Origin: an uncultured Methanobrevibacter sp.
GTDB lineage: Archaea > Methanobacteriota > Methanobacteria > Methanobacteriales > Methanobacteriaceae
Length of the DNA: 49,333 nucleotides
Reading direction: 5' to 3'
NCBI GenBank assembly: GCA_900314635.1
Contig: OMVY01000014.1
Span: forward strand, 1-49,333
In this document: piece by piece, positions 18,855 to 22,742 of the stretch
Position numbering within the stretch: the first letter of the stretch is position 1
Layout of the letters: every line of letters begins with the position of its first letter
The notes under the pieces: generated by a model
The model's database searches: none
Told to the model about the DNA's origin: nothing
What the model saw: the letters and a program-made list of their open reading frames with translations, nothing else
Made by a program: the position numbers and the translations under genes

Positions 18855-19093
18855 ATTCTTCTATTTGTCATGAAGATATATAAATTATTTTAATTCAGAG
18901 AATTTCCAATAATAATCCAAAATCATGCAAAAAACTCAATAAATAAAATTATAATATACTGTAAAAAAGTAAAAAATTAGCTTTTTTATAAGAAAATTTA
19001 AGGAAAATTCTACTTATAACTTATAACTTATAACTAAAAAAGAGAGAAAAACCATTAAAAATATGAACTAAAAAATAGCCCAATGTATAAATT
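18855..19093. other. Intergenic stretch with a short TATAACTTA repeat
   Basis: ACTTATAACTTATAACTTAT at 19012-19031 is a run of three TATAACT units. The same unit forms the long array at 20755-21010 upstream of the ParA gene. Nothing else is recognised here. Confidence 0.45.
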
Positions 19094-20627: not shown

Positions 20628-20754
20628 CCTCTTTTTTTACTAAAAACCCTATTATAATAAACTCTTTTTTTATAAAAAACTATCTTTAACATTAGCAAAA
20701 CCCCATTTTATCCAGAGAAATTAAATATATTTTTTAAAAATTTTATTGAAAATT

Positions 20755-21010
20755 ATTACTTATAACTTATAACTAATAACTTAAAAGTAAAAACTTAAAA
20801 CTTATAAATTAAAAGTTATAAAGTAAAAGATATAACTTAAAAGATATAAGTTAAAACATATAACTTAAAACTTATATAGTATAAGTTATAAATTATAATA
20901 TATAACTTAAAAGTTTTAACTTAAAAGAAATAAGTTATAAATTAAAAGTTTTTAGTAAAAAGATCTAAATTAACAGATATAACTTAAAAAGTAAAAGTTA
21001 TAACTTAAGA
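20755..21010. repeat. Degenerate TATAACTTA repeat array upstream of the ParA gene
   Basis: About 255 bp made almost wholly of variants of TATAACTTAAAAG, in both orientations. AACTTA occurs about eleven times directly (for example near 20764, 20779, 20792, 20834, 20872, 20913, 20979 and 21003), and TAAGTT occurs inverted near 20847, 20882 and 20931. Spacing is irregular and there are no unique spacers, so it is not CRISPR. It ends about 90 bp before the ParA start. By position it could be a centromere-like parS site or an operator; this is inference. Confidence 0.6.
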
Positions 21011-21096
21011 AAAATGAGTAAAAATCTTAATTTTATTAAAACTTTTAAATCAGACTAATTTAATAATCAATGGGTACAAAAATCAGGAGAATTTAG

Positions 21097-21867
21097 ATGG
21101 CGGAAACAATAGCTGTAATGAACCAAAAAGGAGGCTGTGGAAAGACAACAACTGTTGTCAACCTTGCTACCTCATTGGCTTTGATGGGAAAGGCCGTGCT
21201 TGTTGTAGACATGGATCCACAGGCAAATACAACAACCAGCTTTGGAATAAACAAGACAGAAATAAAAAATACTGTATATTCAGCACTTGTAAAAGACTGC
21301 AGCGTGCAGAAGGCAACTATACAAACAAAAGTTGAAAATCTTTTCATACTTCCAAGCAACATTGATTTAAGTGGAATAGAAGTGGAATTATCACAGAAAG
21401 AAAACTATCATATAGCTTTGAAAAATCTGCTTGAGCCTATCAAAGGAATATTCGATTACATAATCATAGACCTGCCTCCATCATTAGGAGTAATCACTAT
21501 CAACTCATTAATAGCTGCAGATAGCGTTTTAATACCTATACAAGCGGAATACTTCGCTCTTGAGGGACTGGCTGATTTAATGAACACAATCAAACTTGTA
21601 GAGACACGTCTTAGAAGTCCGACTCCAATAAAAGGCATCTTATTAACACTCTATGATGCGAGAACCAGATTGGGAAGGGAAGTCTACTCAGAGCTTAAAA
21701 AATACTTCAAAGACGAGGAATACATCTTCAAGACAGTTATTCCTAGAAACATACGATTGGCTGAGGCTCCTAGTTATGGAAAGCCATGCATATTGTATGA
21801 TCCAGAAAGCAAAGGTTCCCAAAGTTATTTGAGACTGGCAAAGGAACTTTTAGAACTAGAACAATAA
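21097..21867 (+). CDS. ParA/Soj-family partitioning ATPase
   Basis: A 256-residue ATPase of the ParA/MinD superfamily, chromosomal Soj size. It has the deviant Walker A KGGCGKTTT with signature Lys11 and Lys16, Walker A' VVDMDPQANTTTSFG, and Walker B YIIIDLPPSLG. PSNIDLSGIEVEL and VIPRNIRLAEAPSYGKP are typical of Soj. There is no N-terminal HTH, unlike plasmid type Ia ParA. ParA binds DNA non-specifically as an ATP dimer, and its ATPase is stimulated by the ParB N-terminal peptide. AGGAGA precedes the ATG. It lies between a repeat array and a gene encoding a ParB-like N-terminal peptide, suggesting a partition locus. A chromosomal role is likely, as no plasmid replication gene is seen. Confidence 0.92.
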   Translation: MAETIAVMNQKGGCGKTTTVVNLATSLALMGKAVLVVDMDPQANTTTSFGINKTEIKNTVYSALVKDCSVQKATIQTKVENLFILPSNIDLSGIEVELSQKENYHIALKNLLEPIKGIFDYIIIDLPPSLGVITINSLIAADSVLIPIQAEYFALEGLADLMNTIKLVETRLRSPTPIKGILLTLYDARTRLGREVYSELKKYFKDEEYIFKTVIPRNIRLAEAPSYGKPCILYDPESKGSQSYLRLAKELLELEQ

Positions 21868-22016
21868 AAAAACATTTCGATATGCATAATAAAATTGAAA
21901 AGACTGAAAATAAATTTCATAATTAGAATTCAATATTTGATTAGAACTGTAAATAAACATTTACAGACTAAGCCAATAGCTAAAAATTAAAAAAAATACA
22001 AAAAGGGTTTGGTATT

Positions 22017-22742
22017 ATGGCAAAAAAAGAAAGAAATTCAGGTTTAGGAAGAGGCTTGGACTCTTTGATTCCTAATATAGCTGAGGAAAAAGAAGTCGAA
22101 GAAGGAATATCATTAGAAGATCTCATGAAAGATTCCGAAGAGGAAATAGAAGAAGTTGAAGAAACTGAAGCTATTCAAGAAGAAACAGCAGCTGAATCTG
22201 AAACTATTCAGGAAAAAACAGAAACAGAAGAAATTCAAGAAAATACTTCTGAAGAGGAAAATGAAATTGAAGAGACCGAAGAATCATCACAAAATTTCAC
22301 AAATGTTCTAGGAAACGATGATGAAATAGTAGAAGAAAAATCTGAAACAGCAAAAGTTGATTACAAGGAAGAATTATCAACAAGAACAGTGGACAGACTC
22401 AAGGAAAAATCAGCTCAAGAAGAAGCATCAAAAATTCAAGAGAAAGATTCAATTAAAGACATACTTGATGATGAAAACATACCAAATATTGAAGACTCAT
22501 TGAATATAAATGAAGATGAAAGCTTTTTATCAAAAGAAGATGAAAAGAATATATCTGAAATCATTGAAACTGTTGAAAAGAATCCAAGAATTACCTTGTG
22601 GTCAGCAAAATCAGCAGCCGTATTAAGGTATTTGAGAAAAACTCAGCCGGAATTCAGCATATCCAAAGAGGCTTCAAGACTCATTGATGAGGCAATAGCT
22701 GAGGAATACCCTGAAATCTGGACTTTATTTAATCATTTATAA
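22017..22742 (+). CDS. Acidic protein with ParB-type N-terminal peptide; no CTPase domain or ParB HTH
   Basis: A 241-residue protein encoded 150 bp after the ParA gene on the same strand. Residues 9-19, GLGRGLDSLIP, match the ParA-stimulating N-terminal peptide of ParB/Spo0J. The GERR-type CTP-binding domain and central helix-turn-helix of ParB are absent. Instead, residues about 24-185 are Glu-rich and low complexity, probably disordered. The C-terminus (about 188-241; RITLWSAKSAAVLRYLRK, SISKEASRLIDEAIAEEYP) is a compact basic-then-helical module that may bind DNA or dimerise, perhaps a ribbon-helix-helix or histone-like fold. It is best read as an unusual ParA partner. The upstream ribosome site is weak (GGTTTGGTATT). 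Confidence 0.7.
   Translation: MAKKERNSGLGRGLDSLIPNIAEEKEVEEGISLEDLMKDSEEEIEEVEETEAIQEETAAESETIQEKTETEEIQENTSEEENEIEETEESSQNFTNVLGNDDEIVEEKSETAKVDYKEELSTRTVDRLKEKSAQEEASKIQEKDSIKDILDDENIPNIEDSLNINEDESFLSKEDEKNISEIIETVEKNPRITLWSAKSAAVLRYLRKTQPEFSISKEASRLIDEAIAEEYPEIWTLFNHL

Follow-up and report, generated by a model that had tools for sequence, protein, structure and literature searches.

A probable chromosomal SegAB partition locus in a Methanobrevibacter-type methanogen, with a predicted regional centromere and a tethered, putatively ParA-activating peptide

Comparison with described partition systems

SegB of S. solfataricus uses a ribbon-helix-helix domain, and its ChIP-seq motif is TCTAGA-S-TCTAGA (PMC12284271). 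The presence of SegAB in Euryarchaeota is already known, and the appearance of the archaeal centromere, its clustering and the variations of SegAB in Euryarchaeota were open questions in 2016 (PMC5120986). In a SegAB study of 2025, no site was recovered in the vicinity of segAB when Thermococcus sibiricus was examined with the Sulfolobus motif, and different sites were supposed to exist there (PMC12284271). In the pSM19035 system, omega binds 7-bp repeats in either orientation with one dimer per repeat, and full activation of ParA needs at least four contiguous heptads (PMC9499535).

The gene pair described here lies in a window of 49,333 nucleotides, the whole stretch of DNA that was analysed, and is very probably the locus by which a Methanobrevibacter-type methanogen partitions its chromosome through SegAB, with a regional centromere and a tethered ParA-activating peptide. 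As in SegAB of Sulfolobales, a ParA-type ATPase is followed by a SegB with a C-terminal ribbon-helix-helix domain, a site is found upstream of segA, and further sites occur mainly near segAB (PMC12284271). The Sulfolobus motif TCTAGASTCTAGA and the TTATAA-S-TTATAA found here also have an identical 13-bp palindromic hexamer-S-hexamer layout in a 7-bp register (PMC12284271). The two systems differ by the core of the motif, which is TTATAAS here and TCTAGAS in Sulfolobus, by the position of the sites, which are mostly intergenic and tandemly iterated here while most Sulfolobus sites are intragenic, and by the ParB-type peptide carried by the present SegB, no counterpart of which was detected in the solved SegB chain of S. 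solfataricus.

The locus shares with bacterial ParABS (Soj/Spo0J) a ParA/Soj-type ATPase and an N-terminal GLGRGL(D/E)xLIP peptide and, in Methanobacteria, a cluster of several short sites in the vicinity of the replication origin. In contrast to ParABS, it has no ParB CTPase/Srx domain, no HTH and no 16-bp parS, the DNA-binding end being that of SegB. An analogy may also be drawn with delta/omega of pSM19035, which has a ribbon-helix-helix partner and contiguous 7-bp repeats, in either orientation, over a promoter; its four-heptad minimum approximates the size of the perfect distal sites found here (about four heptads). However, delta/omega is a plasmid system, its heptad is WATCACW rather than TTATAAS, and its N-terminal peptide is different.

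The ATPase and its partner protein

The segA/parA gene (positions 21097..21867, forward strand) encodes a Walker-type ParA ATPase of 256 residues. It contains the Walker A motif NQKGGCGKTT and matched AAA_31 with an E value of 2e-65, in agreement with the preliminary description of this DNA, which had placed a ParA ATPase with an intact Soj-type motif set here. When compared with PDB sequences, the protein matched bacterial ParA/Soj at 9e-75 to 1e-54, and only at 2.7e-17 entry 7dut, which we take to be S. solfataricus SegA (entries 7dut, 7dv3 and 7dwr). Judged by these pairwise scores, the ATPase appears closest to bacterial chromosomal ParA/Soj, to which it is far nearer than to SegA, and in this it departs from Sulfolobales SegAB.

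The partner protein, encoded by segB (22017..22742, forward strand), comprises 241 residues. The peptide GLGRGLDSLIP, a candidate ParA-activating peptide, was present at residues 9-19 (22041..22073, forward strand), exactly as had been claimed. The sole PDB sequence match of the first 25 residues was T. thermophilus Spo0J (1vz0; KPSGLGRGLEALLPK), at a weak E value of 0.92 because the peptide is so short. The N-terminal pattern LGxG(L/I)xxL(I/F/L) was found in all 46 orthologues with an intact N-terminus in a first survey and in 37 of 37 loci in a second survey, which overlapped the first; a ParB-type peptide was also found in the Thermococcus-like SegB (MKKKKALGRGLEAIIS). The earlier proposal that this peptide is ParB-like is therefore supported by its wide conservation and by the match, though weak, with Spo0J. 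The peptide is followed by an acidic low-complexity linker (22074..22580, forward strand) of very variable length across species, ranging from about 20 residues in the G046/G047 group to more than 200 residues in Methanobrevibacter.

No Pfam family matched the partner in a full-length search, which means that neither ParBc nor a ParB HTH is present and confirms that the ParB CTP-binding domain and HTH are absent, as the preliminary description had stated. Searches of Pfam and NCBIfam with the partner and with 22 aligned C-terminal domains gave nothing usable. In contrast to this, a profile built from the 22 partner C-terminal domains and searched against PDB sequences matched S. solfataricus SegB over 52 of 53 positions, with E values of 9e-9 (7dv2) and 1.8e-8 (7duv), and phmmer with one orthologue alone matched the two solved SegB sequences at 2.5e-8 and 2.7e-7. 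Weak matches of the profile with histone H2B were set aside as chance helical similarity. A structure model obtained from the single sequence was poor (pLDDT 69), while an alignment-based AlphaFold model (40 sequences) reached a pLDDT of 87.5 as a monomer in which the ribbon-helix-helix strand was not formed. The best Foldseek matches of the alignment-based model were 7dv2_A and 7dv2_C (the SegB-DNA structure), and they were weak (E 0.24, rmsd 11.8). Because of this monomer model and the weak Foldseek support, the SegB assignment rests on the sequence profiles.

By this sequence criterion, residues 189-241 of the partner (22581..22739, forward strand) are a SegB-type ribbon-helix-helix DNA-binding domain, with RITLW (22587-22601, forward strand) as its predicted DNA-contacting strand, and the gene pair is therefore assigned to a euryarchaeal SegAB system. 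A reading in which the partner lacks any known DNA-binding domain is wrong. The view taken in the preliminary description, of a DNA-binding solution unlike parABS or SegAB, was not borne out either, since the C-terminal profile matches the solved SegB sequences over essentially all positions; the profile search and structure prediction that it had proposed identified SegB by profile and gave a weak match by structure. With its conserved ParB-type peptide, its acidic linker and its SegB-like C-terminal domain, the partner thus reads as a ParB peptide, a tether and a SegB DNA-binding domain joined in one protein. The strand is RITLW in both euryarchaeal groups with TTATAAS and KIGVW in S. solfataricus, a thin, two-state comparison that is consistent with a link between strand and motif.

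The heptad array upstream of segA and its conservation

The repeats that had been reported in front of segA are real and sharper than claimed: they form a phased 7-bp array and not merely TATAACTTA-type repeats. This array, (TTAWAAS)n, comprises about 37 units in both orientations (20746..21015, no strand assigned), and we predict that it serves as centromere and as operator of segA. Read by position, the unit is T-T-A-W-A-A-S, in which S is C or G at about equal frequency. Its autocorrelation amounted to 0.63, 0.74 and 0.66 at lags of 7, 14 and 21, vs. about 0.3-0.4 at most other lags, and the mean of the three lags (0.674) exceeded that of 500 dinucleotide shuffles (0.406 ± 0.017, maximum 0.470) by about 16 SD. 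When the whole window was scanned with a weight matrix of the heptad, the only matches were the array and a satellite site of about four contiguous heptads (TTATAACTTATAACTTATAACTAA), which is intergenic (19007..19041, no strand assigned); the reversed control gave 0 matches.

Of 60 genomes sampled from the phylum, 59 contained a segB match. The survey of Methanobacteriales that had been suggested, for the order of parA, downstream gene and repeat, found both pair and array to be conserved: segA preceded segB in 47 of the 47 loci having upstream sequence, and TTATAASTTATAA (at most 1 mismatch) was found upstream of segA in 40 of 42 orthologous loci, for a total of 1 control match. The two genes overlap or nearly overlap in deeper branches. 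Among 37 loci with 6-kb flanks, motif matches peaked in the upstream kilobase bin, with 172 matches vs. 0 in the control. Against a genome GC content of about 50%, the element was conspicuous as an AT island of about 55 bp. The motif was found again in the segA promoter of the Thermococcus-like genus (g71). A palindromic motif upstream of segA and motif sites near segAB, recognized by sequence motif, are thus both present.

Absence of the array with conservation of the pair, which the preliminary description would have held against its view, was observed only at the segA promoter of genome G049, which is devoid of the motif, and, in degenerate form, in G032, where the motif has drifted and the 7-bp period persists; G049 possesses six perfect sites elsewhere. 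Pair and array are kept across the order, the earlier reading of a partition locus is supported, and the array is probably a centromere, as had also been proposed.

Several related loci deserve mention. Genome G034 contains a second, diverged segAB-like pair (L077, contig C1, at about 478.5 kb), the partner of which is without the LGRGL peptide and the upstream array of which has a spacing of 8 bp rather than 7 bp (autocorrelation 0.55-0.60 at 8, 16, 24 and 32); this pair is a natural test of spacing vs. protein. Another segAB pair (L076, G055:C37) belongs to another archaeal phylum, in which it is rare (a match in 2 of 60 genomes). It adjoins a broken cdc6-like gene, its upstream sequence contains TTATAACTTATCACTTATCA, and the pair has the appearance of a mobile or acquired element. 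At L197 (G082:C2), a SegB-like C-terminal domain is encoded downstream of a non-ParA AAA ATPase. A plasmid search for SegB-like proteins gave one distant match only, on NC_014254.1, a Methanohalobium plasmid.

Sites around segAB and the proposed role of the locus

Whole genomes were scanned for further sites with sequence patterns and reversed-pattern controls. In the four closely related genomes of g18, a genus that we take to be Methanothermobacter, every 20-mer match with at most 2 mismatches fell in 4-5 places over about 65-85 kb adjoining orc1 (control 0). In the 1.75-Mb genome G047, all ten 20-bp motif matches (at most 2 mismatches) were found in five places between 1,286,883 and 1,362,113 (control 0), the start of orc1 being at 1,278,216. 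G037, G043 and G045 repeated this layout, with sites at about +16, +40, +59 and +85 kb from orc1, and an additional place near +8 kb was found in G037 and G047. Several short motif sites near the origin were thus present in the four g18 genomes and in G040/G042, and not in the Thermococcus-like genus (g71), where the distal sites cluster around segAB and orc1 is 419-575 kb away. In G195 (segB at 858,979-859,134), TTATAAS sites were found at 0.1, 1.0, 16.8, 69 and 80 kb from segB. In G049, the six perfect four-heptad sites (TTATAAGTTATAACTTATAAGTTATAA) are 31-94 kb from segAB. The inspected sites were mostly outside long ORFs.

At least four of the G049 sites (1,073,612, 1,075,252, 1,080,654 and 1,092,045; L096-L100 are G049 sites spanning 1,073,612-1,136,474) have tens of bp of common flank (AAGTGTAATAGCTAGAGAGAATT) besides the four heptads, and the site at 1,098,008 has part of it. 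Because the flanks are common as well as the heptads, these sites look as if they had been copied as longer units.

With the promoter site left out, clustering within 100 kb of segB, tested against uniform placement, gave P values of 2.8e-2 to 1.7e-4 in nine of ten genomes and was not significant in the tenth (G038); these values are descriptive, given that each genome yields few matches, that the genomes are relatives of one another, that the radius of 100 kb was set post hoc and that two limits on mismatches are combined in the site lists. Where AT content was very high, distal sites were hard to separate from background: in G000 and G036, control matches were about as numerous as real 13-mer matches, and for some AT-rich genomes of Methanobacteriaceae the exact search with 14-mers gave counts close to background.

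It is unlikely that the array serves solely as an operator through which segAB is autoregulated and that the pair has a role other than segregation, such as the positioning of another cargo. ParA-family ATPases do position other cargoes (PMC12462528), and in Methanobrevibacter most motif copies are in the segA promoter region. Yet the motif is found again between genes at remote places away from the flanks of segAB, the perfect sites of G049 are all elsewhere than at segA, and in Sulfolobales SegAB has been demonstrated to partition the chromosome (PMC12284271). Still less probable is a reading of the heptads as unwinding or initiator-binding repeats of the replication origin and not as SegB sites. 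Though segAB and orc1 are 9-42 kb apart in most of the complete genomes of Methanobacteria that were examined, the sites of the Thermococcus-like genomes and of G049 are near segAB with no distal site within 100 kb of orc1, the paralogous segAB of G034 is accompanied by a separate array spaced at 8 bp, and sites are spread across 65-85 kb. We regard as very improbable that the partner belongs to an entirely new category of ParA adaptor whose DNA-binding domain has no relation to SegB, as initially thought: it is recognized by no Pfam or NCBIfam family, but its C-terminal domain matches two solved SegB sequences over the full length with an E value of about 1e-8, and the gene order is that of SegAB, with an identical 13-bp site layout. 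That the array is functionless AT-rich low-complexity DNA or a decaying mobile repeat, to which its 13% GC in an AT-rich genome might point, is hardly credible given its strict 7-bp phase and conserved S position, its persistence, sharply visible, in genomes of about 50% GC and in most relatives with segAB, the conserved positions of distal sites between species and reversed-pattern controls near zero. The operator, origin and noise explanations fall short because the distal sites follow segAB rather than orc1.

We consider it fairly likely that euryarchaeal SegAB is, as a whole, a hybrid machine, in which a bacterial-type ParA/ParB-peptide interface is combined with a SegB domain and acts on a hitherto unrecognized regional centromere of short tandem TTATAAS-heptad sites over about 65-100 kb around segAB, this centromere being common to Methanobacteria and the Thermococcus-like genus and swollen to one large array beside segA in Methanobrevibacter. 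Beyond the gene pair, its domains, the array periodicity, the conservation and the clustering of the sites, which are properties of the DNA itself, we infer that SegAB binds DNA, stimulates its ATPase, acts in segregation and is autoregulated. SegB dimers would bind contiguous 7-bp TTATAAS units through their C-terminal ribbon-helix-helix domain and line up in rows on the array in front of segA as well as on the short tandem sites around segAB, which together would form the regional centromere. Such rows of SegB on heptads would represent the partition complex, the sites marking the region to be moved. The flexible acidic linker would present the N-terminal GLGRGLDSLI peptide, which would dock on a nucleoid-bound dimer of the ParA-type ATPase and cause ATP hydrolysis, and pulling by the ParA gradient would then separate sister origin regions. 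SegB bound to the array in the segA promoter may also repress segA, leading to autoregulation.

As far as we found in a search of the literature accessible without subscription, the site motif of Euryarchaeota is new, together with its arrangement in tandem heptads and its clustering, as is the combination of a bacterial-type ParA and a ParB peptide with SegB, though the original SegAB paper may already note part of the observation on the peptide. If G195 is T. sibiricus, TTATAAS sites are found near segB in the very species in which the Sulfolobus motif gave none (PMC12284271). The TTATAAS motif is the predicted euryarchaeal SegB centromere, and provides a concrete candidate centromere in two euryarchaeal classes, with short, testable sites. 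The locus further suggests that the ParA-activating peptide of ParB is modular and can be joined to unrelated DNA-binding domains; this would help to trace the evolution of partition systems.
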